Source of the DNA: Thiosulfativibrio zosterae
GTDB lineage: Bacteria; Pseudomonadota; Gammaproteobacteria; Thiomicrospirales; Thiomicrospiraceae
NCBI RefSeq assembly: GCF_011398155.1
Contig: NZ_AP021888.1
Location: 2,578,001-2,642,000 of the forward strand
Direction: 5' to 3'
DNA length: 64,000 nt
Part shown: piece after piece, positions 33,020-64,000 of the stretch
Position numbering within the stretch: position 1 is the stretch's first letter
Layout: each line of letters begins with the position of its first letter
The notes under the pieces: generated by a model
The model's database searches: none
The model's input: the letters and a program-made list of their open reading frames with translations, nothing else
What the model was told of the DNA's origin: nothing
Position numbers and translations under genes: made by a program

Positions 33020-33586
33020 TTAATGTCTGAGTTGATTAAAAATTCCTTGATGAATTAACGCATCCACATTTAAGACAATAATCATTTTATCGTCTGCGGA
33101 TTGCGCTTCTGCGACATTGGCCAAGCCTTTAATAAACTGCTCACCCACCTGCCCTGCTTCACTAAAGGCGGGGGCTGGTTGTAATTGTTGCATATCAACA
33201 CTTTCGACATCGCTCACACCGTCTACTACCATGCCGATGGTTTTTTCTATCTGCTTGCCTTCTATTTTATCCGTAGCTCGCATTTTGGTGATAATGACGA
33301 CAGTTGAATCATCATAAGTTGGTTGACCTATCTCAAAGCGCTGACGCAAATCCACTATTGGAATCACCGCGCCACGCATATTAATCACGCCTTTGACATA
33401 ATGCGGCATCTGCGGCAATTGGGTTGGGGGTTCCCACCCCCTAATTTCTTGCACACGCAAAATGTCTAAACCATAGGTTTCACGCCCTAACACAAAGGTG
33501 AGCACCTGCTCTGCTGCCTGGGTTGAGGCTACAAAGCTGGCTTCATTGCCAGCACTTGTGCTGGCTGAGCTGACTGAGGCTTCCAT
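33020..33586 (-). CDS. cheW: CheW chemotaxis coupling protein
   Basis: The 188-aa CheW fold has an N-terminal extension of about 25 residues (EASVSSASTSAGNEASFVAS); conserved segments are VLTFVLGRETYGLDILRVQE, YVKGVINMRGAVIPIVDLRQ, VGMVVDGVSDVE-like IGMVVDGVSDVESVD and FIKGLANV. It links MCPs to CheA. The ATG at 33584-33586 overlaps the stop of the upstream MCP (TAATG) and is preceded by GGGGAGAG, better than the upstream GTG/ATG alternatives. Confidence 0.94.
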   Translation of the reverse strand: MEASVSSASTSAGNEASFVASTQAAEQVLTFVLGRETYGLDILRVQEIRGWEPPTQLPQMPHYVKGVINMRGAVIPIVDLRQRFEIGQPTYDDSTVVIITKMRATDKIEGKQIEKTIGMVVDGVSDVESVDMQQLQPAPAFSEAGQVGEQFIKGLANVAEAQSADDKMIIVLNVDALIHQGIFNQLRH

Positions 33587-39507: not shown

Positions 39508-42507
39508 TTAAGCCGCCGTTTGCTCCATTAACTGCCCTAACAATTCAACCACCTTGTCTGATTGCGCATCCAAATCGGTTACGCCTTTTTCTAGGACTTC
39601 ATAATCGTCTATGCTAAAGGCATCCATAATGGTTTTGATGAGCGCATGCATGGCGGCATGTTCTTCACCCAAAGCTTTCATGGATGGCAAGTGCATCAAC
39701 GCTTGGCCTTGTGAGCCGTAATACCATTTACCTAAAGCACAAGCGGTATGGTCTATGGCACTTTCATAGGTCACGCCTATGTCTGCGCCATCAATAAAGC
39801 TGCGAATTTTGCTCTTCCAGCCTAAATGGGCTTTGACCATGGTGTCAAATTGTTTGGCTAAATCGGATTTGGCCACTAGTTTCTCACGACGACATTTAAC
39901 GGCTTCAACTGAGTTGGTATTGGGTTTGCAACCCGCTTTAATCAGCTTAGACATGAGTTCTTCTGGTTTAACCGGTTTATGAACGATGTCTTTCATGCCA
40001 GATGACATAATGGTTTTTTCAAAATCCGCACCATGACCCGTGTAGGCTAGGATGGGTTTTTGATAACCCGTTTTACGGATAGCTTTGGTTGCCTCTATCC
40101 CATTCATCACGGGCATTTCAATATCCATCAAAATAGCCGCCGGATTGTAGCGTTGACATTGGGTAATGGCTTCTCGACCGTTTGCCGCTACTTTGGTGTG
40201 ATAACCCATTTTGGTCAACAACATCACCGCCACTTTTTGATTGGAGACATTGTCATCCACCACCAAGACCAGATACTGGCTTTCAGCTTGGTCTTGCGTA
40301 GCGCGTTGAACCGTTTCGCAATCCCCCAGTTGGAACGAGCCAACCAAGGCATCCATATTTTTAGCCACATCGCCCAAATACTCGGCAAGAGAGGCGTTTT
40401 CTAGTACCAGCGTTGAGTTTTCACTGGCTGATTTATCTAAGCTGATAATCGATTGATTCACATCATGAATTTGGCGCGCTTGCTGTTGCGCGTTTTCAGA
40501 GATATGACGAATATTGGCGGTCATGTCAGTGACTTGGTTAATGATGGACTCTAAGGATGTCCCGGTGGCTTGAACTTTTTCTGTTCCTTGGGCAATCTTT
40601 TCGGCGGTCATGCCAATTAAACCGTTAATCTCTCTCGCAGCATCCGCTGACTTTTGTGCAAGATTTCTCACCTCTCCTGCAACCACGGCAAATCCACGAC
40701 CATGTTCACCGGCTCTGGCGGCCTCTACCGCTGCATTCAATGCCAAAAGGTTGGTTTGAAAAGCAATACTGTCAATCAAAGTTACAATGCCGGTAATTTT
40801 TTGACTCACCTCGGCAATTTCCGCCATAGCGGTGATGGCTTCTTGCATATTGCGATTGCTTTCTTGAACCCCCGCTTCGGTTTGAATGGCCAGCTGATTA
40901 GATACCTTAGCTTGTTCGGTGGTTTCGTTTACCTTTTGGGTTAATAGGTTCATGGCTACGGCGGTTTTTTGAAGTTCATCCGCTTGCGCTTTAATAGAGC
41001 TGGACAACATCTCGTTACTTTCGGACACATGCTCGGCCGAATGCGACACTTCTTTGGCTTGATTATTAAAGCTACAGAAGGAGGTTCTTAAAGATTCAAT
41101 CCCTGCGCCCAAACTTTTAATGGTCCAACCATATTGCCCTTGGTGTTGTCTTTGCGCCTTTAGGGTTAAGTTTTTAGCGGGTAAACCACCAATTAGAATC
41201 GAGATATCACTGAGGGTGGATTGTAAATTTTGCATTAAGGAGTTGATGTCTAAGCAAAGGTCTTTATAAAAACCGCTTAACTGAGAGGCATCTAAACGGG
41301 TATGTAGTTTGCCGTTTCTGGCATCTGATACCAAAGTTTTGATGCTGTTTTGCACAAACAACTCTTGGAAAATATCTTGCCATTCAATCGCCACCCCTAA
41401 AGATTTGCCATTGCCATCAAAAATAGGCGTCATAGACAACTGTACTTCAGCGGAATAGAAATTAAACTTAAAGGTTTTAGGCTCTTTTAAGTCTAAACAA
41501 GCCATCAGAATATCCATGTCGTTTCTGAATAAGCAGCCGATATTTTTGCCGGTTAATTTTTTCAAATTAAAATCGGGCACATCTTTTTGAATAATGGCTT
41601 CAATCGGTTTTAAGAATTCGATTAAGGAGGCATTCATAAATACAATGGTGCCGTTTTGGTCGGACAACATAATGTAGGTTTTTAAATCATCCATACCCGA
41701 CATCATGCGTTTTGAAAAGCGTGCTTCGACATTGATTTCGTTTTGCTGTGCGGCCAACCGCGTTTGCATGGTTTTTAAACGACGGTTCATGGTGCCAGCG
41801 GTATTCGCACCGTGCGTATTGATTTTACCCGTTAAATGGCCATTGGTTAGGTCATCAACCGCTTCAATGGCTTCTTGAATGCGGTGCAAATAATACATGA
41901 CATGCATGGCCGAAATCAGCGTGAGCACTATCACCGACAGATTTAAAATTTCCGAGTCGATATCGAAGAAATAGGATAAGAATTCATTGGTAATCGCAAT
42001 GATGGTTGCGGGAATGATCGTAACTAGAGGTGGCCAATGGGCTAGGGGATTGAAACGCGCATAGAGAGAGTCTGGCACACCATGACGCAATTTAACCTTA
42101 CCTGCCTTAACCGCGGCGTAAGCTGCTTCAGCACCCTTAATTTGCTCACGAGTGGCGGGCATTCTGACACTGATATAGCCGGTAATTTTGCCGGATTCTA
42201 TAATGGGCGTGGCATTGGCTTCAACCCAATAAAAATCGCCATTCTTACGGCGATTCTTAACAATTTGATTCCAAGGGCGGCCACTTTGAATGGTGCCCCA
42301 AAAGTCTGCAAAGACTTGTTCTGGCACATCTGGGTGACGCAGCAAGTTATGCGGTTTACCCACCAGTTCTTCCAGTTCGTAACCACTGGCGGCAACAAAC
42401 ACTTCGTTGGCATAGGTAATGGTGCCTTGCAAATCGGTTTTTGAAACCAGCATTTGCCCTTCTGGAATGACATATTCATTGTTTGTCACTGGCTGATTAT
42501 TACGCAT
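39508..42507 (-). CDS. Aer-like PAS-MCP-receiver-CZB fusion chemoreceptor
   Basis: The 999-aa protein has an Aer-type PAS domain at about 15-125 ([20 protein letters not shown]), two adjacent TM segments (about 155-205), a second PAS-like region (about 260-390), an MCP signalling domain ([20 protein letters not shown]), a receiver domain with intact LVVDDNVSN and [14 protein letters not shown], and a CZB domain at the end ([30 protein letters not shown]). A receiver and CZB fused behind an MCP is an unusual order. The ATG at 42505-42507 follows GAAGGAAGC, better than the upstream in-frame start at 42534. It probably reads redox/energy state through PAS and zinc or oxidant through CZB. Confidence 0.93.
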
Positions 42508-42593
42508 AACGCTTCCTTCTATCTCTCGGCTCAAAATATAGAAATCACTTTAGCAAAATGGACACCAACTTGCCAAAGTTTTCATGTTTTTGA

Positions 42594-45500
42594 TTATGAA
42601 ACTATTTTTACCCTAAACCACACCGCATATAACGCTGGTAAAAAAAGCAGCGTTAAGAAGGTGCCCACGCCTATGCCGCCAATCAATACATAAGCCATTG
42701 GCCCCCAAAAAGTGGAAGTGGTTAGCGGGATAAACGCCAACATGGCCGCCACCGCTGTTAACACCACCGGACGCGCTCGGCGAATGGTGGCATCAATCAC
42801 CGCCTCGCTCATGTCTAAACCGTGCTTTAAGTTTTCGTCAATTTGACCGGTTAAAATAAGGGTGTTACGCATCAAAATACCCCCCAAACCAATGAGCCCC
42901 AAATTGGCGACAAAACCAAATGGCTGATTAAACAAAATCATCGCCGCCACCGCACCAATCAAACCTAAAGGCGCGGTCACCATCACCATAAACAGACTGC
43001 TAAAGGATTTTAAGTACACCATTAACAACAGTGTTAGCACCAATAACATCACGGGCATCATGGCTTGAATAGAGAATTCCCCTTTGGCAGATTCTTCAAC
43101 CGAACCGCCCACATCAATACGATAACCAAAGGGCAAGGCATCGATTAGCGGCTGCATTTGCGCTTGAATCAGCGCAGTTGCCACAGGCGGTTGAACACCT
43201 GGAATGACTTCACTGTTAACCGATAAATACAACTCGCGGTTACGGCGCTCTAAAATGGGTTCTTCAAAATCGACTTCTAATTTGCCCAACTGTTCAAGTG
43301 GCAAGCTTTGCCCAGAAGGCGTTTGAATCATCAAACCATTGAGTTGCGCCACTTGAGTGCGCGTGGCTTGGTCGGCTCGCAGAATAACCGCCAAGGTGCG
43401 AATGTGATCACGCACCTGCGATACCGCAACCCCTTGCAACTGCGCTTGCAGTTGTTGCGCCACGGCTTGTGGCGTTAAGCCCAATTGTGCCAAGCGCGCA
43501 TTGTTGAACACCACATTTAAAATAGGCGCTCTTTGTCCCCATTGCAAATGCGGGTCAATCGCAAAATCTTGCTTGGCAATCAATTGGCGAAGGTCTTCGG
43601 CTATGCGTCGCAATTCTTGGGCATCGGGCCCGACCACTCTAAAGGTGACTGGCCAAGCCACTGGCGGACCAAACAATAAAGGATGCACGCGCACCCGAGC
43701 TTCGGGGAAAGCGCCTTGATTGATGAGGGTTTGCAATTTACTCTGCAAAGCATCTCGAGCATTTTTATCGTGGGTGACCACAATAATTTTGGCAAAAGCT
43801 GAATTAGGCATTTCGGGGTTCAGTGCCAAGAAGAAACGCGGCGCACCCTGTCCAATATAAGACGACAAAGATTTCACTTCTTCATGCCCATTAATTAAGG
43901 CTTCTAGGCGTTGGGTCACCGCATCGGTCACTTGAATCGCCGTGCCTTCTGGCAGGGTGACATCCACCATGAGCTCAGGGCGATCCGAACTGGGGAAGAA
44001 TTGTTTGGCCACAAATTTGCCCATGCCCACTGCCGCCAAAACAAACAACAGCAAGGTAATGGCAACCACCACAAACTTATAACGCAAACAGCCGGTAATC
44101 ACTTGACGCAAAGCCCGGTAGCCTTTCGAGTCATAGACACTTTTATGCACATTTTCGGCTGAATTTTGACCAGGTTTTATGCCCTTTAGGGTGCTGGTTG
44201 TTTTTGAATCTAAATTTGGCTTTGGATTAGGATTAGGATTAGGTAATAATTTCACCCCCAAATAAGGCGTAAAGGTCACCGCCACTATCCAGGATGCGAT
44301 TAAGGTAATGCCTAACACCCAAAAGATGCCGCCGGCATATTCACCCACGCGTGATTGCGCCAAACCGATTGGCAAAAAACCCACCACGGTGACTAAAGTA
44401 CCCACCAACATCGGGGCAGCGGTTACTGTCCAAGCATAGGCAGCGGCTTTGGCCTTGTCCATGCCCTCTTCCATTTTGACCAGCATCATTTCTATGGCAA
44501 TAATGGCGTCATCCACCAATAAACCCAGTGAAATAATCAAGGCACCGAGGGTGATGCGGTCAAAGTTAAGGCCATTTAAATACATAAACAAAAAGGTCAT
44601 GCCCAGCGTTAAAGGCACAGCCAAAGACACAATCAATCCGGCTCTAAAACCTAACGCCAACAAACTGACGACCAAAACCACACCCAAAGCGGTGACAAAT
44701 TTCAGCTGAAAAGTCGATACCGCACCATGAATGGCATCGGCTTGGTTGGTGACCTTTTCAATTTTTAAGCCCAATGGCAGTTGTTGTTCATAGGCTTTTT
44801 CAAAGGATTGCAAGGCCGCCTCAAGTTTTAAACCATCCACCTTAGGTTTCATGACCACACCCACCAACAAAGCCGGTTCGCCTTTATTGCGAATCACATA
44901 ACTCGGTGGTTCTTCAAAGCCTTGCTTAATCTCAGCGATGTCTTTTAATAAGATTTGTTGAGTGCCTAAAAGCAAAGGCGTATTTTGCAAACGCAGCACA
45001 TTTTGCTCATGGGCAGACAGATTGAGCTGATCACTTTTTAAACGAATGTATAAGCGCGGCCCTTGGGTTTCGATAAAGCCAGCCGAGGTGACCGCCAGTT
45101 GTGCATCAATCGCTTGTTGCACTTGGGTGAGATTTAAACCCATTTGCGAGATGCGCACTGTGTCTAAGTCAATAAATAACTTGGGGGCTTGTTCACCCAA
45201 CAACGACACTTTTTTAACGCCTTGCACTTGGCGCAGCGCAATTTGCAACTTGTCGGCTTCGCGCACCAGTTTGTCTTGCGGCCAGTTATCTGCCGTTAAA
45301 CTATAGAGGGTAAAAAAGACATCTTCAAAATCATCATTAAAGACTGGCCCTATCACGCCCTTAGGTAAACGACTCGCTTCATCGCCCAAGCGTTTACGCA
45401 CTTGGTAATACAGTTCTTGGGTCATGTCCATGGGGGTGTTCTCAGCAAAGGTCACCAATAAATCGACACGACCGGCGCGGGCTTTGGTTTCCACACGATC

Positions 45501-45743
45501 AAAATACAAAATTTCTTCTAGGCGTTTTTCCAGCGGATCGGCCACCTGGTCTTGCATTTCGGCGGCGGTTGCCCCTGGCCAGGTCGCCGAAACCACCATC
45601 GTATTAATGTTAAAAGACGGATCTTCAGCGCGCCCCATGTGCAAAAACGCATAGATACCGGCCAAGGCGACCACGATGATGAAGTAGAGCGTTAATGATT
45701 GTTCTTTGACGGCATAGGCAGAAACATTCCAACGATTCATCAT
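42594..45743 (-). CDS. RND efflux permease (AcrB superfamily)
   Basis: The 1049-aa RND protein has the N-terminal NRWNVSAYAVKEQSLTLYFI, EDPSFNINTMVVSATWPGAT, twelve TM segments and the TM4 motif ISLGLLVDDAIIAIEMMLVK with two Asp. It belongs to the broad hydrophobic-compound efflux group rather than the metal group. The loop after the first TM half carries PNPNPNPKPN, encoded by three GGATTA hexamers at 44224-44241. The gene overlaps the adaptor gene by 4 bp; no outer-membrane factor gene is adjacent. Substrate unknown. Confidence 0.94.
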   Translation of the reverse strand: MMNRWNVSAYAVKEQSLTLYFIIVVALAGIYAFLHMGRAEDPSFNINTMVVSATWPGATAAEMQDQVADPLEKRLEEILYFDRVETKARAGRVDLLVTFAENTPMDMTQELYYQVRKRLGDEASRLPKGVIGPVFNDDFEDVFFTLYSLTADNWPQDKLVREADKLQIALRQVQGVKKVSLLGEQAPKLFIDLDTVRISQMGLNLTQVQQAIDAQLAVTSAGFIETQGPRLYIRLKSDQLNLSAHEQNVLRLQNTPLLLGTQQILLKDIAEIKQGFEEPPSYVIRNKGEPALLVGVVMKPKVDGLKLEAALQSFEKAYEQQLPLGLKIEKVTNQADAIHGAVSTFQLKFVTALGVVLVVSLLALGFRAGLIVSLAVPLTLGMTFLFMYLNGLNFDRITLGALIISLGLLVDDAIIAIEMMLVKMEEGMDKAKAAAYAWTVTAAPMLVGTLVTVVGFLPIGLAQSRVGEYAGGIFWVLGITLIASWIVAVTFTPYLGVKLLPNPNPNPKPNLDSKTTSTLKGIKPGQNSAENVHKSVYDSKGYRALRQVITGCLRYKFVVVAITLLLFVLAAVGMGKFVAKQFFPSSDRPELMVDVTLPEGTAIQVTDAVTQRLEALINGHEEVKSLSSYIGQGAPRFFLALNPEMPNSAFAKIIVVTHDKNARDALQSKLQTLINQGAFPEARVRVHPLLFGPPVAWPVTFRVVGPDAQELRRIAEDLRQLIAKQDFAIDPHLQWGQRAPILNVVFNNARLAQLGLTPQAVAQQLQAQLQGVAVSQVRDHIRTLAVILRADQATRTQVAQLNGLMIQTPSGQSLPLEQLGKLEVDFEEPILERRNRELYLSVNSEVIPGVQPPVATALIQAQMQPLIDALPFGYRIDVGGSVEESAKGEFSIQAMMPVMLLVLTLLLMVYLKSFSSLFMVMVTAPLGLIGAVAAMILFNQPFGFVANLGLIGLGGILMRNTLILTGQIDENLKHGLDMSEAVIDATIRRARPVVLTAVAAMLAFIPLTTSTFWGPMAYVLIGGIGVGTFLTLLFLPALYAVWFRVKIVS

Positions 45744-54395: not shown

Positions 54396-55580
54396 ATGAT
54401 TCGTCGAAGAATTAACCCGATTTTATTTGCTCTCATGCTTGGCCCCAGCTTGTTACCGTCTTCTCAAGCCTTCGCCGAAGACATTAAAACAGAAGTTGTC
54501 CAGTCAGCGGTCTATGATCGTTTTGTATCGCTTGGCGGCACAGTCATCCCTTTTAAAGAAGTCACCATTACCGCCCAGCAAGCAGGTCAAATTAATTATA
54601 TTGCAGGTATTGAAGGCGACAACTTTAAAGCTGGCGCGTTATTAATCTCTACCGATGATGACATTTTGCGCGCTCAACGCAATGCCGCCTTAGCGCAATG
54701 GCAACAAGCCTCTTATGCCTTTCAAAATGCCACCACCCAATATAACCGTGAGCTTTGGAGCCCCTCCAATGAAAAATCTATGCCCGGCATGGCTTTGCCT
54801 GGTTTAATGGATCAAATGTTTACCAAGCCCATGGGGAATGCCATAGGCGTGGGTGACGACAAAGTTGATCGCCGTGCTAATGAATTGGGCGCTTTAAGCA
54901 AGGTGAAAGAAGCGCAAGCGCAAATGAATCAGATCAAAGCGCGTATTGATGAAATTGATGTGCGTCTGTCTGACACCAAATCAACCGCACCTTTTGACGG
55001 CGTGATTGTTAAAAAAATGGTTGAAGCCGGCGATAGCGTGCAACCTGGACAACCCTTAATGGTTTTTGCCAAAAGCAATCACTTAAGTGTTGCGGTACAT
55101 GTACCCGTCAACTTAATGATGAGCATTCAAAAGGGCGCTATTTTTGATGCCCGCTTGGCAGACAAACGCCCTATCCAAGTGCGTGTTGCACAAGTTTTTC
55201 CGGTGGCGAACAACCAGCAACATACGGTTTTGGTGAAGTTTGATTTACCGATAGGGGCGCCAGCAGCCCCTGGTATGTATGCTGAAGTTGCGGTACAAAA
55301 TGCCTCTTCACAAAATCAGGCTTTCCCTGTCATCCCTAAATCTGCCATGGTCAAACGCGGTAGCCTGCCGACGGTATTTACGGTTAATGAGAAAAACAAT
55401 CAAGTTGAAATGAAAATTGTTCGATTGGGTAAGGCTGCTCAAAACGGCTACTTCATTGTGCTTTCAGGCATCTCCGCTAATGAAAGAATTATCGTAAACC
55501 CGCCCTCTAATATTGTTTCTGGATGGATTCTCAACAATGGCAAGTTATCGCCACCTAATAAAACCAACCAAGAACTTTAA
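54396..55580 (+). CDS. RND-type periplasmic adaptor (MFP) of the ParA/dynamin cluster
   Basis: The 394-aa protein has a signal peptide (LALMLGPSLLPSSQAFA-like, cleaving near residue 27), a lipoyl half (VTITAQQAGQINYIAGIEGD), a short coiled hairpin with an inserted Pro/Met-rich segment (SPSNEKSMPGMALPGLMDQM), the second lipoyl half (TAPFDGVIVKKMVEAGDSVQ) and beta-barrel domains. It links the RND permease to the cell envelope. No outer-membrane factor gene follows, in contrast to the cus operon. The permease starts 24 bp downstream. Confidence 0.9.
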   Translation: MIRRRINPILFALMLGPSLLPSSQAFAEDIKTEVVQSAVYDRFVSLGGTVIPFKEVTITAQQAGQINYIAGIEGDNFKAGALLISTDDDILRAQRNAALAQWQQASYAFQNATTQYNRELWSPSNEKSMPGMALPGLMDQMFTKPMGNAIGVGDDKVDRRANELGALSKVKEAQAQMNQIKARIDEIDVRLSDTKSTAPFDGVIVKKMVEAGDSVQPGQPLMVFAKSNHLSVAVHVPVNLMMSIQKGAIFDARLADKRPIQVRVAQVFPVANNQQHTVLVKFDLPIGAPAAPGMYAEVAVQNASSQNQAFPVIPKSAMVKRGSLPTVFTVNEKNNQVEMKIVRLGKAAQNGYFIVLSGISANERIIVNPPSNIVSGWILNNGKLSPPNKTNQEL

Positions 55581-55604
55581 TAACCGCTAGAGCTAGGCAA
55601 AAAA

Positions 55605-58600
55605 ATGACACAACCCAATCAAACGCAAAATGCTTTGCCAGAAGAATCGGCATCTAAGCACGATATTGCAGGCAACACTGCCAAAAGTTATATCAACTCA
55701 CCGATTACCCCTTTGTTTATTATTGTTGGGTTCGTGATTGGTATTATGGGTATTTTATTTACCCCAAGACAAGAAGACCCTCAAATCTCTGTGCCGATGG
55801 TCGATGTCATGGTGCAATATCCAGGCGCCTCTAATAAACAAGTTGAAGCCCTAGTCTCTGAACCTTTGGAGCGATTGTTTAAAGAAATTAAAGGCGTTGA
55901 GCATGTTTATTCGGCTTCTGACAGAGGTCAATCCATTATCACTGTGCAGTTTTTGGTCGGTGAAAATATGGAAGACGCGCTGGTTAATGTCTATAACAAA
56001 ATGGCCTCCAACCTAGACCATATGCCTGAAGGGGTTTTGCAACCTGTTATCAAACCCAAAGGGGCGGATGAAGTACCAGTCGTCACCTTTACGCTGTCAT
56101 CCAAAACCCTAGAAAGCACCCAGTTACGACTTTTAGGATTTGATGTCTTACAGGCAATTGCATCGATTGATCATGCCGCACAAGGGTTTGTGGTGGGTGG
56201 CGACCCAACGGAAATCAAAGTAGAAATTGATCCTGAAAAAATTGCAGGTTATGGCATTTCTTTAACCCAAATTGGGCAAGCTATTCGAGCAGCCAATGCC
56301 GAGTCCAGTGCGGGTGAACTGTCGGCTTGGCAACAAAAATACCTTGTTTATACCGGGGACTTTCTTACCTCTGCCGATGATATTAACGATTTAATTGTCG
56401 GTGTAAAAGACAAAGCACCGGTGTTTGTTAGAGATGTGGCTACGGTTACCGAAGGCGCAAAAGATGCCACCAACCTAGTTCGCTTTTACACCGGCCCTGC
56501 TAACAAAAGCACTTATGTTGCCCCAGAAGGCGAAAATGCCATCACCGTTGCTTTGGCAAAACAGCCAGGCGCTAACGGGGTGAGCGTTGCCAATGATGCC
56601 ATTTCGCGTTTAACCGAGCTTAAGGGCACTTTAATTCCTGATGATGTTCATATAGCCATTACGCGTAACTATGGCAAAACTGCCAACGACAAAGTGAACG
56701 AGCTGATTTTTAAACTGTTCATTGCCACAGGTTCTGTCACGCTTTTAATCTGGTTCTTCTTGGGTTGGCGTGCGGCTGCGGTGGTCGCGATAGTCATTCC
56801 AATTGTTATTTTATCGACCGTATTTGCTGCCTGGATGATGGGGCTAACGATTGACCGAGTCAGTTTATTTGCACTGATCTTCTCAATCGGGATTTTGGTT
56901 GATGATGCGGTGGTGGTGCTCGAAAACATCTATCGTCGCTGGCTAATGGACTCTGACACGGGAGTTAATGTGACCGTTGATGCCGTTTCTGAAGTGGGCA
57001 ACCCTACCATTATTGCAACCTTTGCCGTCATTGCAGCTTTGATGCCAATGGCATTTGTCAGCGGCATGATGGGACCTTACATGGCACCCATCCCAGCACT
57101 GGGTTCAGTGGCGATGGTGATTTCATTATTTGCCGCCTTTGCGTTTACCCCTTGGTTAGCGCAACGCATGAAGCCAAAAATGGAATCACTCAAAGCCGCT
57201 GAAGAAAAAGAACATGAACAAAGCGAACGACTAGGTCGTTTCTTTGAAAAACTCTTAGGCAGCTTACTGGTTGAAAAAGTTAAGGGCTGGGGTTTATTGC
57301 TTGCCATCATTACCGCATTTGCGCTGGCTGTTTATTTGGTTTACAGCACGATGGTTCCGGTAAAGTTACTGCCTTATGACAACAAACCAGATTTCAGCGT
57401 GGTGATTAACTTCCCAGAAGGTACGGACTTAACCATCACAGCAAACTTAACGCACAAGCTGGCAAAAACTTTGCAAGAAGAAGTGCCTGAAATCACCACC
57501 ATGGAAACCTATGTGGGCACCCCCGCCCCCTTCGATTTTAATGGCTTGGTTAGACACTATTATCTGCGTAACTTTGTGTGGAACAGTGATATTCAAGTTC
57601 ACCTAAGCGATAAGTCAGAACGCCATCGTTCTAGCCATCAGGTTGCAGAGAGCATTCGCGCTAAATTAACGGAAATTGCGCATCAAGCAGGTGCCAAAGT
57701 GCAAATCGTTGAAATGCCTCCTGGGCCACCTGTATTGCAATCCATTGTTGCCGAAATCTATGGGCCTGATGAAGCAACTCGCAATGCCACTGCTGAAAAA
57801 GTCACCCAAATTTTTGAGCAAGCAGAAATGGTCGTCGATGTTGATAACTTCATCACCGAACCTCATGACACCTGGCGTTTTGTCATCGATAAACAAAAAG
57901 CCATGGAAAGCGGTATCAGTGTATCCACCATCAACCAAACCGTTGAAATGGCGATGGGTGGTTTCAAATTAGGCGATGTAAAACAAGGCTTTAAACGCGG
58001 CGAACCCACCTTTATCGTGTTACAAGCCCCGCAAATGGTTAGAGCAGAGTTTGCTCGCATAGGTCAAATTCCGGTGCAGAGTGAACTCGGTATCCTTGTT
58101 CCGCTTAATGAACTTGGGCGCTTCATTATCGAAAGACAGCAAACGGTGCTTTATCACAAAGATTTAACACCTGTGCAATATGTCACTGCCACTGGACAAG
58201 GTCGCTTAGGAGCGCCCATTTACGGGATGTTGGATATTCAAGAGCTGATGGATCAATCTCCTGAACTCAATGGTCTGAACAGTAACTTTGTGTTTGTGCC
58301 TAATGGCTTAACCGAAGTTGGCATGATGTGGGCAGGTGAGTGGACCGTTACTTACCAAACCTTCCGCGACATGGGTCTGGCATTTGGTGTGGCGCTACTC
58401 ATTATCTATATGCTGGTGGTCTGGGAATTCCGTAACTTTTTAATTCCACTCATTGTTATGGCACCCATTCCCTTAACCATTATTGGTATTGCACCTGGAC
58501 ATTGGATTATGGGCGCTGAGTTTACCGCAACATCGATGATTGGCTTTATTGCACTGGCAGGGATTATTGTGCGTAACTCGATTTTATTGGTGGATTTTTC

Positions 58601-59429
58601 GCGCCAAGAAATTGCCAAAGGTGTAGCGATTACCGATGCCGTGATTTTTGCCTGTAAAGCCAGAACTCGCCCTATCATCATTACGGCAGCCGCATTGGTG
58701 TTAGGCTCAAGCGTCATCTTGTTTGACCCAATTTTCCAAGGCATGGCCATCTCGCTGATTTTCGGGATTTTAGTGGCCACTCTATTAACACTAGTCGTTA
58801 TTCCACTGGGATGCGTGTCCGGTCGTGCTGCTTTCTGTGCATCGCCCTCAAATTACACCGCAGAGATGGGTGCTCATGTGTGTGGCTTAAAAACCCCTGA
58901 AATTGAAGAAGCCACCATCCATCCCCGCATGAAGTTGGTTTTTGCCAAAACCGCTATCGACCCATTTAATCCGATGGCCATGGTTAAGCAAGCACCCAAA
59001 GCGGTGGCTTTAGCTGAAGAAAGTTTTGATGAACCCAAAAAAGCCGCGGTGGTGGTTAAAAAAGTTGAAGTGACTGAAACTCCGCAAGTCATCGCAGAAC
59101 CCGAAACACCCGCAGCTGAACCTGAAATGAAGGTAGAAGAACCTGAAGTGGTGGCAGAAGAATCTAAAGCGGTGGTAGAAGAACCCAAGGTGGTTAAAAA
59201 GCCGGCTGTTCGTCGTACTCGTAAGCCTGCAGCACCCAAAAAAGGTGCAACCCCTGAGGCCAGCGTGACTGAAGAAGCTCCTGCTGTTAAAACCCCAGCA
59301 GCCACAGAAACCGCACCCAAAACATCTGAACCTGAAGTTCAGCAGAGCGCACCCGTAGAACCCGTCGCACCGCGTGGGCGCAAAAAAAGAGGCATTCAAC
59401 TAAAGGATTTAAATGAAGATGAAAAATAA
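55605..59429 (+). CDS. RND permease with a ~205-residue disordered cytoplasmic C-terminal tail
   Basis: The 1274-aa protein has a complete RND core (ITPLFIIVGFVIGIMGILFT, TM4 motif IFSIGILVDDAVVVLENIYR, twelve TM segments) that ends near residue 1069. The rest has several Cys (GCVSGRAAFCA, AHVCGLK), then a long Ala/Glu/Pro/Val/Lys-rich region with a basic patch (KKPAVRRTRKPAAPKKG) and a terminal PRGRKKRGIQLKDLNEDEK. Both RND termini are cytoplasmic, so the tail faces the cytosol. Normal RND length is about 1020-1050 aa. The tail could bind the ParA ATPase or nucleic acid, which is inference. Substrate unknown. It overlaps the next gene by 17 bp. Confidence 0.9.
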   Translation: MTQPNQTQNALPEESASKHDIAGNTAKSYINSPITPLFIIVGFVIGIMGILFTPRQEDPQISVPMVDVMVQYPGASNKQVEALVSEPLERLFKEIKGVEHVYSASDRGQSIITVQFLVGENMEDALVNVYNKMASNLDHMPEGVLQPVIKPKGADEVPVVTFTLSSKTLESTQLRLLGFDVLQAIASIDHAAQGFVVGGDPTEIKVEIDPEKIAGYGISLTQIGQAIRAANAESSAGELSAWQQKYLVYTGDFLTSADDINDLIVGVKDKAPVFVRDVATVTEGAKDATNLVRFYTGPANKSTYVAPEGENAITVALAKQPGANGVSVANDAISRLTELKGTLIPDDVHIAITRNYGKTANDKVNELIFKLFIATGSVTLLIWFFLGWRAAAVVAIVIPIVILSTVFAAWMMGLTIDRVSLFALIFSIGILVDDAVVVLENIYRRWLMDSDTGVNVTVDAVSEVGNPTIIATFAVIAALMPMAFVSGMMGPYMAPIPALGSVAMVISLFAAFAFTPWLAQRMKPKMESLKAAEEKEHEQSERLGRFFEKLLGSLLVEKVKGWGLLLAIITAFALAVYLVYSTMVPVKLLPYDNKPDFSVVINFPEGTDLTITANLTHKLAKTLQEEVPEITTMETYVGTPAPFDFNGLVRHYYLRNFVWNSDIQVHLSDKSERHRSSHQVAESIRAKLTEIAHQAGAKVQIVEMPPGPPVLQSIVAEIYGPDEATRNATAEKVTQIFEQAEMVVDVDNFITEPHDTWRFVIDKQKAMESGISVSTINQTVEMAMGGFKLGDVKQGFKRGEPTFIVLQAPQMVRAEFARIGQIPVQSELGILVPLNELGRFIIERQQTVLYHKDLTPVQYVTATGQGRLGAPIYGMLDIQELMDQSPELNGLNSNFVFVPNGLTEVGMMWAGEWTVTYQTFRDMGLAFGVALLIIYMLVVWEFRNFLIPLIVMAPIPLTIIGIAPGHWIMGAEFTATSMIGFIALAGIIVRNSILLVDFSRQEIAKGVAITDAVIFACKARTRPIIITAAALVLGSSVILFDPIFQGMAISLIFGILVATLLTLVVIPLGCVSGRAAFCASPSNYTAEMGAHVCGLKTPEIEEATIHPRMKLVFAKTAIDPFNPMAMVKQAPKAVALAEESFDEPKKAAVVVKKVEVTETPQVIAEPETPAAEPEMKVEEPEVVAEESKAVVEEPKVVKKPAVRRTRKPAAPKKGATPEASVTEEAPAVKTPAATETAPKTSEPEVQQSAPVEPVAPRGRKKRGIQLKDLNEDEK

Positions 59430-59922
59430 ACCAACGCAAAAATTAATACACGCTTGTTTAGTGGGTGGATTATTGATGGGTATGAGTCAGGCTAATGCGC
59501 AAAATTGGCCTCAGTCAGAAGACACTTATCGCTCTACGCAACAGTCACCGCAATGGATTGAACAGAAAGCCGCACCAAGCGTGCAACAAAATACTGCACC
59601 CATGACGCAACAAGCGCCAGCACCCCAATTCTATGGACAACCTATGCCTTATGGCTATGGCGCCCCTATGAATGGATATCCAGGTTACCCCGCACCCGCT
59701 TATGGCGGCTATGGTTACCCCGGATATCCGGTTAACAACGGATATGGCTCACCGCAAGGATGGAATAACGGCCCAAGACCGCCATTCTTTGGAAACAATG
59801 GGTTTGGACCTTGGAACGGTTCCAATTTTCCGCAAATGCCCGATATGGGCAATATGCCGAATATGGAAATGCCAAGTCCCAGCTTCACGTTTCCGACGAT
59901 GAACATGCCCTTTTGGAACTGA
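59413..59922 (+). CDS. Secreted Pro/Gly/Tyr/Asn-rich low-complexity protein
   Basis: The 169-aa protein has a signal peptide ending in GMSQANA|QNWP, a Gln-rich stretch and a long repetitive part with GYPGYPAPAYGGYGYPGYP, NNGFGPWNGSNFPQMPDMG and MPSPSFTFPTMNMPFWN. It has no mature Cys. Composition (Pro, Gly, Tyr, Asn, Met) resembles sulfur-globule envelope proteins and other structural proteins of the periplasm. The ATG overlaps the RND permease gene by 17 bp, so the two are coupled. Confidence 0.8.
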   Translation: MKMKNKPTQKLIHACLVGGLLMGMSQANAQNWPQSEDTYRSTQQSPQWIEQKAAPSVQQNTAPMTQQAPAPQFYGQPMPYGYGAPMNGYPGYPAPAYGGYGYPGYPVNNGYGSPQGWNNGPRPPFFGNNGFGPWNGSNFPQMPDMGNMPNMEMPSPSFTFPTMNMPFWN

Positions 59923-59988
59923 GTTAAAGGATTAACTCAAATCGTTTGAGAAGAGATCCTACCCTCTTCAAAAACACAATACAAAACG

Positions 59989-60015
59989 GAAAGACTCAAC
60001 GCACTCAAGTCTTTC
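59989..60015 (+). promoter_or_regulatory. Hairpin in the leader of the sulfur-globule-like gene
   Basis: GAAAGACT (59989-59996) and AGTCTTTC (60008-60015) form an 8-bp perfect stem with an 11-nt loop, 40 bp upstream of the ATG at 60055. No T tract follows, so it more likely stabilises or processes the mRNA than terminates it. Confidence 0.35.
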
Positions 60016-60054
60016 TGCAAAGTACCGAGTGCACATTCTATCAAGGAGTATGAT

Positions 60055-60594
60055 ATGAACATGAAAAAATTAGCTTTAGCTTCTCTAGTCACTGCAACGA
60101 TGTTAGGTGCACAAACAGCATCTGCAGATTGGTTCAATGGTCCATGGAACAACAACAATGGTTATAACAACAATGGTTGGAACAATGGCCAGGGTCAAGG
60201 ACAAGGCTACGGTTATGGTAATGGACTAGGCAACGGACAAGGCCAAGGTCAAGGCAATAGCCAAGGTCAAGGACAAGGTAAAGGGTCTGGTAAAGCTAAG
60301 GGTAACTTCAACATGGGCTTTGATGCTGAATCAGATATGCAAGGTTCTGGTAACGGTCAACAAAACCAGAAGTGGGATGGCAGCGGAAATGGTAACGGTA
60401 ACGGTTGGGGCAATGGATATGGCAACAACGGTTATAACAATGGCTGGGGTGGAAACTACCAAGGTCAACCTTACTACTACCCACCACAAGGTTATGCTCC
60501 ACAGCAAGCGCCTATGGCTCCACCTGCTTACTACCCTTACCCAATGCCACCAGCGCCTCAAGCTCCAGCAGCACCAGCGCCAGCAGCTAAGTAA
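60055..60594 (+). CDS. Sulfur-globule (Sgp/CV1)-like secreted protein
   Basis: The 179-aa protein has a signal peptide MNMKKLALASLVTATMLGAQ ending TASA|DWFNG. The mature protein begins DWFNGPWNNNNGYNNNGWNN, continues with Gly-Gln/Gly-Asn repeats, a less repetitive core (KGNFNMGFDAESDMQGSG), WGNGYGNNGYNNGW and a Tyr/Pro/Ala tail (YPMPPAPQAPAAPAPAAK). The aromatic DWF-PW start, a central G-N-F-x-M segment and Pro/Ala end are what I know of sulfur-globule proteins of Allochromatium. Those coat periplasmic sulfur deposits. A strong RBS (AAGGAGTATGAT) suggests high expression. Assignment rests on composition and motif memory. Confidence 0.75.
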   Translation: MNMKKLALASLVTATMLGAQTASADWFNGPWNNNNGYNNNGWNNGQGQGQGYGYGNGLGNGQGQGQGNSQGQGQGKGSGKAKGNFNMGFDAESDMQGSGNGQQNQKWDGSGNGNGNGWGNGYGNNGYNNGWGGNYQGQPYYYPPQGYAPQQAPMAPPAYYPYPMPPAPQAPAAPAPAAK

Positions 60595-60622
60595 TTGTTG
60601 TAAAACAGTATGAATTTCCAGT

Positions 60623-60656
60623 GCTTGGTCAAAAAATGACCAGGCCTGGTGATTTT
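60623..60656 (+). terminator. Overlapping alternative hairpins including the CAGGCCTG palindrome
   Basis: GCTTGGTCA (60623-60631) pairs with TGACCAGGC (60637-60645, one G.U pair) around an A5 loop. Alternatively ACCAGG (60639-60644) pairs with CCTGGT (60645-60650), followed by GATTTTT. The two structures exclude each other. The 12-bp palindrome ACCAGGCCTGGT is exact here. It lies 29 bp after the sulfur-globule-like gene and 140 bp before parA, so it may partly terminate transcription between them. Confidence 0.5.
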
Positions 60657-60710
60657 TAAGCCTTTCTACACATAAAAATGACAATTCATTATGAATGTTT
60701 ATTGCTTAAA

Positions 60711-60753
60711 TCAAAATGAAATTAAAATAAGCCAAATGCTGATTTTATTTTGA
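60711..60753. promoter_or_regulatory. Inverted repeat upstream of the ParA-like gene
   Basis: TCAAAATGAAAT (60711-60722) and ATTTTATTTTGA (60742-60753) form a 12-bp inverted repeat with one mismatch and a 19-bp spacer, 46 bp before the ParA ATG. A promoter/operator for the second half of the cluster is likely since the gap is 205 bp and A+T-rich. Confidence 0.4.
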
Positions 60754-60799
60754 CTTAAACGAAAAAAATACCAACATAAAATATCTAACTGGAAAAAAC

Positions 60800-61420
60800 A
60801 TGATCACCGTTGTAGGAAACATGAAAGGCGGAACCGGTAAAAGCACCCTAGCTTTTAACCTAGCCATTTGGTTGGCACATCAACATAAAGCACTGCGGTT
60901 GTTTGACTTAGACCCTCAACAAACCCTGACCGATGTGGTTGAAGTTCGCAACGAAGAACAATATCAGCCTCAACTGCCCAAGCCACATTTGTTGCAAGAC
61001 CTTGCCGATTTTACCCATACTGGTGAGCACATCATTATGGATGTCAGCATGAGCGATCAAGCATCCTTAAAGTTGGCCATCGCTTTGGCGAATCGCATAG
61101 TGATACCTGTCGCACCCAGCCAAGCGGACATTTGGTCGACACAAAGATTCATCAAATTAATCAAAGAAACTCGTACCGATTTACCTAAGATGATTGCGGT
61201 CATTAATCGTGCCGATACCCATCCGTTTGTGGCAGAAACCAAAGAAACGGAAGAAGCTTTAGATTATTTACCACACATTGAGCGCTTACCCACTCGCCTT
61301 CATAATCGCACCAACTATCGCCGTTCGTTCAGCGAAGGCCTAGCGGTTTTTGAAATGGATCCCAACGGTAAAGCCAGTCACGAATTTATTAAAGTTGCTA
61401 AACAAATATTTAAGGAATAA
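60800..61420 (+). CDS. Orphan ParA/MinD-type positioning ATPase
   Basis: The 206-aa protein has the deviant Walker A VVGNMKGGTGKSTLAFNLAI, Walker A' LFDLDPQQTLTDV, Walker B-like HIIMDVSMSDQ, and APSQADIWSTQRFIKLIK. It lacks the DNA-binding N-terminal extension of plasmid ParAs and has no ParB gene beside it, like the ParA family members that position cargo (McdA, ParC, PpfA, MipZ). It is the first gene of a tight block; the next starts 3 bp after its stop. Cargo is not known; the membrane proteins or the RND tail are candidates. Confidence 0.9.
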   Translation: MITVVGNMKGGTGKSTLAFNLAIWLAHQHKALRLFDLDPQQTLTDVVEVRNEEQYQPQLPKPHLLQDLADFTHTGEHIIMDVSMSDQASLKLAIALANRIVIPVAPSQADIWSTQRFIKLIKETRTDLPKMIAVINRADTHPFVAETKETEEALDYLPHIERLPTRLHNRTNYRRSFSEGLAVFEMDPNGKASHEFIKVAKQIFKE

Positions 61421-61423
61421 ACC

Positions 61424-62788
61424 ATGTCAGTTATAAGAACCTTACTCAACAACGGATTTTTCGTACTCCTACTTTTGGTGGGCGCAACCCTTTATCTGGC
61501 CTATTCCGATAAGATCAAAGAAGAACATGGTCTTTTAACACCGACAGAAGTCGCTCACACTGAAACCACCGTGGCCGAGCCTGCTGAACCGGTGGCAGAA
61601 GCAACGCCAGCAATCACCGAAGAACCAGCCCCTGTTGTTGAAACCACTGCGCCTGCAGAAGCAGCACCTGAAACGGTAGCAACTCCAGAACCTGAAGTCG
61701 CCGCGCCTGTCACCGAAGTTGCCACAACTGAAACAGATGTCGCCACGCCAGAAATAGCGGCTCCAGAAACGACTGCCCCTGAAGAAACCGTTGCTGCAGC
61801 ACCCGTTGCCGAAGAACCTGCCATCGAAATCCCTGAAACCGAAGCGGCACCAAGCTTACCGCCAATGGATGAAAGTGTTTTAGCGCAATTTAAATCTGCA
61901 GAAGAAGCCATTGCGGCTGCACGCCAAGCCTTTTATGAAAAAGACTATTTAACGGCTGAAAAAATTTATTTCCCCTTAGCCTTCAAATCACAACAAGCCG
62001 ATATTGTGGGTGAATTAGCCAATGTACTTTACGCCGATGACAAACAAGACTGGGCTAAAAAAGCTTGGTTAGAGTCGGCGAAGTTATTAGTTAAAGAAGG
62101 GCGCTTTAATGATGCGATGTTATTGGCACAACGCTTAAGACCCGTTGCGCCTCAAGAAGCTGCCGAAATTGCTGACAACCTTCAAAAACTGCATCAAGCG
62201 CAGGTAGAACAACAGCGTCTTGCTCAACAACAAGCCATGCAAGCCAAAGCGCAACAAGAAGCCGCTTTAGCCGCAGAGCAAGCAAAACAACAAGAAGCTG
62301 AACGACAAGCCCAACTAAAAGCACAAGAAGAAGCGCAAGCACAATATCAAGAGCAAATGAAAGCGCAACAAGAAGCTCAGGCACAACGCCAAGCGCAAAT
62401 GAAAGCTCAACAAGAGGCTTATCAAAAGCAAATGCAAGCCAGAATGCATCAAGCCAATCCTAATGCGCCTATCATGCCTACCCCTGAAGAACAACAAGCG
62501 CGTATGCAAGCTTATCAGCAACAAATGCAAGCTTACCAAGAACGCTTAAAGGCTTATTATGCTGCGCAAGCTCAGCAACCGGCTGCTCAGCCGCAAGCTG
62601 CAGCCCCACAAATGCCTGCGATGCCCAGCCAACAAGAACAGCAAGCTCGTATGCAGGCTTATCAACAGCAAATGCAGGCATACAATGAACGCTTAAGAGC
62701 TTATTATGAAGCTCAGCGTCAACAGGCTAACCCAAACATGCCTATGCCGAATGGCCCACAGCTCTTCTACCCAGGTCAACCCAGATAA
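61424..62788 (+). CDS. Single-span membrane protein with Ala/Glu/Pro-rich, TPR-like and Gln-rich repeat regions
   Basis: The 454-aa protein has one TM near 10-28 (GFFVLLLLVGATLYLAYS), an Ala/Glu/Pro/Thr low-complexity region at about 40-145, a helical TPR-like segment at about 150-255 (AEEAIAAARQAFYEKDYLTA, WAKKAWLESAKLLVKEGRFN), a Gln/Ala/Glu coiled coil (about 255-350), and two near-identical 31-residue repeats (QQARMQAYQQQMQAYQERLK and QQARMQAYQQQMQAYNERLR) before a Pro-rich tail. Whether the bulk is periplasmic or cytosolic is not decided by the few charged residues. It looks like a scaffold. It starts 3 bp after the ParA stop. No family name recognised. Confidence 0.8.
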   Translation: MSVIRTLLNNGFFVLLLLVGATLYLAYSDKIKEEHGLLTPTEVAHTETTVAEPAEPVAEATPAITEEPAPVVETTAPAEAAPETVATPEPEVAAPVTEVATTETDVATPEIAAPETTAPEETVAAAPVAEEPAIEIPETEAAPSLPPMDESVLAQFKSAEEAIAAARQAFYEKDYLTAEKIYFPLAFKSQQADIVGELANVLYADDKQDWAKKAWLESAKLLVKEGRFNDAMLLAQRLRPVAPQEAAEIADNLQKLHQAQVEQQRLAQQQAMQAKAQQEAALAAEQAKQQEAERQAQLKAQEEAQAQYQEQMKAQQEAQAQRQAQMKAQQEAYQKQMQARMHQANPNAPIMPTPEEQQARMQAYQQQMQAYQERLKAYYAAQAQQPAAQPQAAAPQMPAMPSQQEQQARMQAYQQQMQAYNERLRAYYEAQRQQANPNMPMPNGPQLFYPGQPR

Positions 62789-62831
62789 TTTAAATCATCC
62801 AAGAGATTAAAACCCTCTTATAAAATGAATG

Positions 62832-62859
62832 TATGAACGGACAAAGTTGTTCGTTCATA
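62832..62859. promoter_or_regulatory. 28-bp near-perfect inverted repeat in the intercistronic gap
   Basis: TATGAACG-G-ACAA faces TTGT-T-CGTTCATA with a 2-bp centre; only one pair per arm is mismatched. It lies just before the RBS (AAGGAAA at 62862) of the next gene. It could be an operator, or an RNA hairpin controlling translation or processing between the two membrane-protein genes. Confidence 0.5.
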
Positions 62860-62873
62860 TCCAAGGAAACTCC

Positions 62874-63536
62874 ATGTCCCTAGAAAAAATCGACGCCATA
62901 AAAAATAAAAATGAAGGCAACGAAGCCATTCAAGCCTGTGATATTAATGAACTTGCTAAGACCATGACCCAAGGGATTCGTCGTTGGGAAAAGGTTATTT
63001 ACCCAATGATGGTCGCTTTTATCATCTTAGCCGCCTATGGCTTTTGGCTCATTTACAATGTCACTAAGGATATGCGTCAAATATCAACCAATATGATTGT
63101 GATGACTAAGGCCGTGGTCACCATGACAAATACCCTAAATCAAAAAATGAACAATATTGATAAACAACTGACAGAAGTGAATCAACATATGGCAGGGATT
63201 GATAACTTGGATAATCAATTAACCAAAATCAATGCCTCAGTACTCAGCATTAATGAATCTCTCATTCATGTCGATTCAACCTTGACCGGTATTCATCAAT
63301 CTGTGCAATATATGGGCTATTCAACCAGTAATATGAGTGGCAATTTATCTGAATTGAACCAAAATATTTCGGCCCCCATGAATTCGATGAACTCGATGAT
63401 TCCTTGGGCAAATATGCCCGGCGGCGGTAACAAGCGTAACAATGGTCCGCGTAATTACCCAACCCAACCTTATCCTCAAATGCCTTATGCGCCGCAGCCT
63501 ATGCCGGTGCCTCAAGCTGCTAACCCAACCAAATAA
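62874..63536 (+). CDS. Single-span membrane protein with coiled coil and Pro/Asn-rich tail
   Basis: The 220-aa protein starts at the ATG with AAGGAAACTCC upstream (a 15-codon N-terminal extension to 62829 would cross the inverted repeat and is rejected). It has a short cytosolic start, a TM helix at about 42-62 (YPMMVAFIILAAYGFWLIYN), and a heptad-rich coiled coil (about 65-160: NMIVMTKAVVTMTNTLNQKM, LDNQLTKINASVLSINESLI). The tail is Gly/Asn/Pro-rich (MPGGGNKRNNGPRNYPTQPY). It resembles methyl-accepting/laminin-like coiled coils but has no MCP domain. It lies 12 bp before the dynamin-like gene. Confidence 0.8.
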   Translation: MSLEKIDAIKNKNEGNEAIQACDINELAKTMTQGIRRWEKVIYPMMVAFIILAAYGFWLIYNVTKDMRQISTNMIVMTKAVVTMTNTLNQKMNNIDKQLTEVNQHMAGIDNLDNQLTKINASVLSINESLIHVDSTLTGIHQSVQYMGYSTSNMSGNLSELNQNISAPMNSMNSMIPWANMPGGGNKRNNGPRNYPTQPYPQMPYAPQPMPVPQAANPTK

Positions 63537-63548
63537 GAGGTTTTTGAA

Positions 63549-64000
63549 ATGACTCCCCATGAACGCTATGTCAAATTAGAACAACACTTAGCTCAAGAAA
63601 ACCCGGTGTTGCTCGACATCATAAAAACTTATCAAGCTTTAGATAAGGTCGGTTACAAAACAGGTCTTCTGAACCGTGACCAGTCTTATGCAACTGATAT
63701 TTCGTGGTGGCCACTCATTTCAGTTTTAGGCACTTTTTCAGCAGGTAAATCTTCATTTATCAACCAATACACCGGCAAGGCTGTGCAATCCACGGGGAAC
63801 CAAGCCGTTGATGATAAATTTACAGTGATTTGTTATGGCTCTGGCGATGAGGTGAATACCCTGCCTGGTCTTGCTTTAAATGCCGACCCGCGTTTTCCTT
63901 TTTTTGGCATCAGTGAAGAAATCAATAAGGTCGAACAAGGCGAAGGGCAACGCATCGACAGTTATTTACAACTGAAAACCGTTCCATCTGAAATTTTAAA
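63549..64000 (+). CDS. Dynamin-like GTPase, N-terminal part (cut by window edge)
   Basis: The frame from the ATG at 63549 is open for 150 codons to the window end. A helical start (HERYVKLEQHLAQENPVLLD) leads into a GTPase domain: P-loop LGTFSAGKSSFINQYTG (G1) and STGNQAVDDKFTVICYG, where a Thr provides the G2 switch. The spacing fits bacterial dynamin-family proteins, which bend or fuse membranes. The G3 and G4 motifs should lie beyond the window. The gene has a Shine-Dalgarno AGAGG and follows the coiled-coil gene by 12 bp. Confidence 0.85.
   Translation, partial: MTPHERYVKLEQHLAQENPVLLDIIKTYQALDKVGYKTGLLNRDQSYATDISWWPLISVLGTFSAGKSSFINQYTGKAVQSTGNQAVDDKFTVICYGSGDEVNTLPGLALNADPRFPFFGISEEINKVEQGEGQRIDSYLQLKTVPSEIL

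Follow-up and report, generated by a model that had tools for sequence, protein, structure and literature searches.

Although sulfur globules count among the bacterial inclusions that have been known for longest, the only proteins known for them are those of the coat. In Allochromatium vinosum, the genetically tractable model for periplasmic sulfur globules, sulfur globule proteins (SGPs) coat the elemental sulfur. Work on SgpA-D of this organism deals with coats only, and no ParA, RND, coiled-coil or GTPase partner is described in the literature searched. In the ParA-type cargo systems (McdA/McdB, ParB, PpfA-TlpT, ParC-ParP), an ATPase with an intact deviant Walker A motif is encoded beside cargo genes and acts with a cargo partner carrying a basic disordered terminal peptide; ParA partners bind via positively charged disordered termini (PMC10241942). 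Here we analyse a cluster of eight genes at the end of a 64,000-nucleotide stretch of DNA from Thiosulfativibrio zosterae (the window; bases 2578001-2642000 of the complete 2,645,427-bp genome). The cluster encodes an RND adaptor and permease, two secreted low-complexity proteins, a ParA-type ATPase, two membrane proteins and a dynamin-like GTPase. We consider it fairly probable that it serves the biogenesis and positioning of sulfur globules, and that periplasmic sulfur stores are thereby placed in the cell and passed to its daughters in a way similar to chromosomes and carboxysomes.

A first-pass annotation of the window had proposed eight co-directional, tightly spaced genes and had staked their significance on the order being kept in relatives. 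All eight plus-strand open reading frames (ORFs) were found with exact coordinates, as were the 17-bp overlap of the permease and first secreted-protein genes (59413-59429) and the gaps of 3 bp (61421-61423) and 12 bp (63537-63548). The order recurs: all eight genes stand in identical order in Hydrogenovibrio sp. S010_36 (L064) and in G031, whose genus code is that of Thiomicrorhabdus, and the conserved order is not chance. Shorter or longer versions were found by tblastn and profile neighbourhood maps in about 30 gammaproteobacterial families, including that of A. vinosum, with the general order adaptor-permease-secreted(n)-ParA-[TPR]-[DUF302 protein]-coiled coil-[GTPase], where TPR is the tetratricopeptide-repeat protein. 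The adaptor gene comes first in most clusters; ParA, the permease and the coiled-coil protein are the most constant parts, and in larger clusters the secreted low-complexity proteins number five or six and are joined by a DUF4412 protein.

Among 114 relatives including the window genome, the close ParA clade occurs in 19, set off from other ParA paralogues by a score gap from about 180 to 82 bits, and the dynamin-like protein in 31; most of the T. zosterae family is without the cluster. A search within the order of A. vinosum found the ParA in 171 of 195 genomes and 45 of 56 genera. In A. vinosum DSM 180 the genes run in the order adaptor (435 aa), permease (1277 aa), a 222-aa ORF, a secreted protein of DUF4412-like type (35% identity with its counterpart in genome G096), ParA (49% identical to the window ParA) and coiled-coil protein, and the permease, 54% identical to that of the window over 1096 columns, has an RRGIRLK tail. 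A phylum-wide genome draw added a second class, probably Magnetococcia; in its genome G432, probably Magnetococcus marinus MC-1, an SGP gene begins about 0.76 kb ahead of ParA. Intracellular sulfur globules have been observed in a magnetotactic coccus of the Magnetococcia group (PMC5088516).

The association with sulfur globules was measured in 369 evenly drawn Gammaproteobacteria, in which we compared the distribution of PF17228, the family of the SgpA/B kind, with that of this ParA clade. PF17228 was present in 62 genomes and the ParA clade in 65; 53 held both, 9 the SGP only, 12 the ParA only and 295 neither (Fisher p 1.1e-42, uncorrected for descent). By family, 27 held both, and 4 and 5 held one only. 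The SGP gene starts less than about 3 kb from ParA in at least 13 genomes and less than 0.8 kb in 9, often directly before ParA. In a second sample, with at least one genome per family for the ParA-positive set, dsrA was found in 28, soxB in 32 and either gene in all 33 of the 33 ParA-positive genomes, against 7, 9 and 10, respectively, of the 41 without ParA. The expectation that the cluster belongs to sulfur organisms is thus borne out in this sample; the window genome itself has soxB, and dsrA was not found in it. Some sulfur oxidizers lack the cluster, which is therefore no general set of lithotrophy genes, and sulfur oxidizers without SGP matches mostly lack it too. PF00124, the photosynthetic reaction centre family, was absent from 80 genomes, a set that held no phototrophs.

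The annotation had also likened the product of the gene at 60055 to sulfur globule coats. This holds for the positional orthologue in G096, which lies between permease and ParA (L090:4269-4703) and scores 56.2 bits with PF17228, above the cut-off of 26.7, but not for the window protein itself (15.1 bits). The other positional orthologues tested score 15.8-25.7 bits, below the cut-off. In alignments, an AxxWxxGPW start and an FxMxF core are common to the 60055 protein and SGPs, and the core at 60301-60327 resembles the SGP motif GDM/GDF-S-M/F-S-F/M-S-G. A profile-profile comparison with SGPs gave a match that is weak evidence alone because it is limited to 32 columns around the signal peptide. 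Relatives of the first secreted protein occupy the equivalent place in L064, G031, G034, G048 and G051, and most clusters hold secreted Gly/Asn/Tyr/Pro-rich proteins like the SgpA-D coats, many too diverged for the Pfam model. As an association, the proposed tie of this locus to a periplasmic sulfur body therefore has good support from gene order, SGP orthologue and sulfur-oxidizing hosts; the annotation's further suggestions, export of a globule component by the pump and a body enclosed by inner membrane, are conjecture. In keeping with the association, sgpD of A. vinosum reportedly adjoins the gene for a hydrophobe/amphiphile exporter (PMC10386293), which may or may not be the cluster permease. 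At the level of sequence, the link between ParA cluster and sulfur globules is strong; the mechanism set out below is what we infer from it.

The annotation had called the ParA an orphan, and no ParB is found in the locus. Pfam places it in CbiA/AAA_31, and a consensus built from 55 cluster ParAs shows the deviant Walker A motif KGG-x-GKST, with its signature lysine, to be invariant. Identity with chromosomal ParA/ParB was rejected for want of a ParB in the locus, and identity with carboxysomal McdA because McdA is a more distant paralogue. The five systems that have been analysed in H. neapolitanus include none like this cluster (PMC10241942). Judged by its sequence, what is new here is the RND permease tail with a near-invariant RRGI(R/Q)LK. 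By analogy, the system would work like ParA cargo positioning, with a partner of a new kind and probably cargo of a new kind as well: the candidate for the partner is a C-terminus, that of a polytopic RND transporter, instead of a soluble N-terminus, and the cargo would be periplasmic.

The C-terminus of RND permeases is cytoplasmic. In the cluster permeases this tail is basic and disordered, with the motif near its end: nearly all readable permease C-termini in ParA-positive loci have a Lys/Ala/Pro- or Glu/Pro-rich tail and RGI(R/K/Q)(L/I)K in the terminal region. Shuffled tails contain the motif at a frequency of 3.7e-5. Variants are few (RGIRLN, RGIRLR, and RRGIRAD in G268 and the second copy of G145). 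The latter two tails, from ParA-positive genomes (L221, L234), end RRGIRAD(R/K)K instead of RRGIRLK, and in G145 a further copy carries the normal motif.

Motif and ParA status agree in 58 of 60 permeases. Recognizable clusters without ParA also lack the motif in the Thiomicrorhabdus marina group (G034, G048, G051) and in the families f80 (G141, G265) and f102 (G163, G378); likewise ParA-less, G202 retains the coiled-coil gene and the permease, which ends in a degenerate RKSVRIK, and G402 retains a permease that lacks the motif. The cluster-type RND is thus kept while both ParA and motif are missing in five lineages. On a permease tree built from core columns only, with tail columns dropped by occupancy, ParA changes six times and the motif six times, and four to five independent contrasts agree while none disagrees. 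The motif does occur without ParA in G149, an 88% complete genome in which the contig breaks off shortly after the permease. G117 was rejected as an exception, since its motif sits in the next ORF (a split tail). Because the motif is lost with ParA and known partners have basic disordered termini, we propose the tail as a candidate ParA-docking arm, which suggests that the permease also serves as a trans-membrane link to ParA. Second, paralogous cluster-type permeases without the motif, some beside other genes, were seen in L233 and L235 (G163, G378) and L223 (G215); these are possibly a ParA-independent version of the transporter.

In other respects the permease resembles HAE-type RND pumps (AcrAB, MexAB, MdtABC) in its fold, its transmembrane helix 4 (TM4) Asp-Asp pair and its HlyD-type adaptor. 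It differs from them in the long basic RRGI(R/Q)LK tail, Arg in place of the TM10 Lys and, in its partner, a Met/Pro-rich adaptor insert. The TM4 pair (VDD) is invariant in the aligned cluster members and the site of AcrB K940 is Arg in all of them, so the permease may still be proton-driven. The window permease did not reach curated NCBIfam cut-offs, and Pfam and NCBIfam found no outer-membrane channel (OEP) among the eight genes, a search in which the unlabelled ORFs of other clusters were not included. Plain efflux was considered as a reading and set aside. The adaptor insert, about 33 aa with a conserved ...PGM(A/G)xPxxxDQxFxxPM... (PGM-x-P-x-x-FDQ-x-F), replaces the tight hairpin tip that in other adaptors docks outer-membrane TolC-type channels, and from its sequence it is a candidate face for docking on the globule or its coat. 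Two more AcrB-type RND permeases lie on the minus strand of the window (10407-13565, ACR_tran 718 bits; 42594-45743, 465 bits), making three in 64 kb.

The remaining membrane proteins may act around this complex. Relatives of the TPR membrane protein were found in many clusters by iterative profile. The coiled-coil protein has a conserved juxtamembrane RWE-x-YP ... YGFxLI around its single span and is kept in ParA-less clusters. The GTPase gene, which the annotation could follow only to position 64,000, continues to window-equivalent 65138 (529 aa in full; L002:9549-11138). Its product has GxxxxGKS/DSPG/NQID motifs (GKS, DxxG and NxxD), a helical stalk and, by eye, two C-terminal transmembrane helices. 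It shares with EHD ATPases, mitofusins and BDLP the Dynamin_N domain, the motifs and the fold, with sequence matches to EHD2/EHD4 and, for a model of the L064 homologue, Foldseek matches to EHD4 (E 3e-12), mitofusin and BDLP; the model's middling confidence (pLDDT 72) limits its use to fold class. It is set apart from those proteins as part of a bacterial family of its own, whose members have two C-terminal transmembrane segments and were seen here in sulfur oxidizers. The GTPase is enriched with ParA (17 of 19 ParA-positive against 14 of 95 ParA-negative relatives). Campylobacterota and several Thiomicrorhabdus have it but not the cluster, of which it is an optional part. In L068-L073 (Sulfurovum, Nitratifractor, Sulfurimonadaceae and other Campylobacterota metagenome-assembled genomes, all sulfur oxidizers) the family stands alone at 51-55% identity, which suggests that it was transferred between phyla and has a role wider than the globule cluster.

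The mechanism that we propose runs as follows. Secreted low-complexity proteins, those of SGP type among them, would coat periplasmic elemental sulfur, by transfer from A. vinosum, and the permease with its unusual adaptor would form a globule-facing complex in the inner membrane. The end of the tail, RRGI(R/Q)LK, would dock on and stimulate the nucleoid-bound ParA dimer, like the basic N-termini of ParB and McdB, as its loss together with ParA leads us to suppose. The ParA gradient would then space globules and divide them between daughter cells, with the permease carrying the pull across the inner membrane as adaptor. The coiled-coil and TPR proteins would scaffold the permease complex, and the EHD/mitofusin-like GTPase, where present, might reshape the inner membrane around the growing globule or at division. 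Sulfur species, a lipid or a coat component are candidate substrates of the pump. The most specific version, in which ParA partitions an extracytoplasmic organelle, the RND transporter couples a nucleoid ParA ratchet to periplasmic globules as trans-membrane adaptor, and a body without a membrane is thereby spaced and inherited, is one that we put forward tentatively, with somewhat more doubt than belief.

Several points weigh against a globule-positioning system. Only the SGP relatives among the cluster proteins have experimental contact with globules, and the match of the window's own SGP-like protein, below the cut-off, is mostly signal peptide and WxxGPW start. No SGP gene was seen in the 20 kb read around the A. 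vinosum ParA. The sign test on the four to five tree contrasts gives p 0.06-0.125, that is, not below 0.05 with five independent losses, and cannot go lower because there are too few independent pairs. Several lineages hold the cluster without ParA, and positioning is therefore not essential to it. Finally, characterized Hydrogenovibrio and Thiomicrorhabdus strains deposit sulfur outside the cell (PMC5733100, PMC10608990), though the cluster is missing from most of their family. A globule-positioning system makes its clearest physiological prediction here: cluster-bearing members of the window's family would store sulfur in the periplasm.

There are three other explanations for the locus. First, ParA could position the RND complex itself, as pole- or nucleoid-linked efflux of, for example, toxic polysulfide or hydrophobic compounds, with the SGP-like genes as co-regulated neighbours and globules not the cargo. 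The coupling of the motif links ParA with the permease only, the 12 ParA-only genomes above and most genomes of the second class have no PF17228 match, and the known A. vinosum sgpA-C lie outside the ParA locus as read. However, co-occurrence with and adjacency to SGP genes are far above chance, and the secreted Gly/Asn/Tyr/Pro-rich proteins that most clusters carry are often beyond the reach of the Pfam model; we regard this explanation as unlikely. Second, the cluster could export extracellular elemental sulfur or attach it to the surface, the pump secreting sulfur or coat material and ParA placing the export site, as would suit the extracellular sulfur of the family's studied members and the usual exporting role of RND systems. 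This is quite improbable for a locus that is so frequent in the A. vinosum group, known for periplasmic globules, that occurs in probable Magnetococcia, one with observed intracellular globules, that has no outer-membrane channel gene among its eight and that some sulfur oxidizers lack. Third, the locus could be an envelope system of another kind, for a surface matrix, an appendage or the organization of membranes, that merely travels with sulfur lithotrophy, its Gly/Tyr-rich proteins SGP-like by composition only. This would fit PF17228 being a low-complexity family whose cut-off the window protein and several other cluster proteins fail to reach, but is very improbable given the absence of PF17228 from all 14 control genomes, the 56-bit cluster protein and the general lack of the cluster in sulfur oxidizers without SGP matches.

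The features of the cluster are collected in Table 1. Pfam and NCBIfam gave no confident family for either secreted protein or the TPR membrane protein, Rfam and tRNA scans of the window gave no match, and a promoter and terminator scan of the cluster gave promoter matches at chance level.

Table 1. Genes and sequence features of the cluster (window positions)
Feature	Position	Strand	Details
RND periplasmic adaptor (membrane fusion protein, HlyD/CusB-type)	54396..55580	+	394 aa; cluster gene 1; HlyD_D23 42.7 bits, RND_mfp TIGR01730 158 bits
Adaptor insert in place of hairpin tip	54756..54854	+	~33 aa; alignment of 31 cluster adaptors, consensus over 38
RND permease (AcrB superfamily)	55605..59429	+	1274 aa; ACR_tran 516.7 bits
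Permease cytoplasmic tail, Pro/Glu/Lys/Ala-rich, low complexity	58836..59426	+	from sequence and tails of cluster permeases
Tail motif RGIQLK, candidate ParA-docking peptide	59388..59405	+	local form of (R)RGI(R/K/Q)(L/I)K
Secreted low-complexity protein 1, Pro/Gly/Tyr/Asn/Met-rich	59413..59922	+	169 aa; signal peptide and composition by eye
Secreted low-complexity protein 2, positional SGP (PF17228) orthologue	60055..60594	+	179 aa; PF17228 15.1 bits, below cut-off
G-N-F-N-M-G-F-D-A core, SGP-motif-like	60301..60327	+	two alignments
ParA-type ATPase	60800..61420	+	206 aa; CbiA 51.5 bits, NF041546 142 bits; KGG(T/S)GKST intact
Single-span inner-membrane protein, periplasmic Glu/Pro-rich linker, TPR-like region, Gln-rich tail	61424..62788	+	454 aa; iterative profile
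Single-span inner-membrane coiled-coil protein	62829..63536	+	235 aa; consensus of 46 members
Dynamin-superfamily GTPase, EHD/mitofusin-like	63549..64000 (to 65138)	+	Dynamin_N 32.7 bits (cut-off 27); cut by window end

The cluster lies near dnaA, since dnaA begins the genome record at base 1 and the window is near the end of the record. Beyond the window, the dynamin-like gene is followed by a RhuM-Fic fusion-like gene (L002:11408-12391), not seen in other clusters. The rest of the window is rich in signalling genes, with two chemoreceptors (one a PAS-MCP with response regulator and CZB domain), two PAS-GGDEF-EAL proteins and a hybrid histidine kinase; these genes lie at 39508-42534, 33586-35895 and 15105-19202 on the minus strand and at 20600-23434 and 26641-29346 on the plus strand.

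A search of the literature on SGPs with ParA, dynamin or RND found no such system described; papers behind subscription lay outside the search, and earlier notice is possible. The locus supplies a small candidate gene set for the nucleation, placement and inheritance of sulfur globules, with genes that exist in the tractable A. vinosum and a short tail peptide motif as a mutable target. If the proposed mechanism is true, ParA positioning would reach cargo across a membrane, and an RND transporter would gain a structural, non-efflux role.

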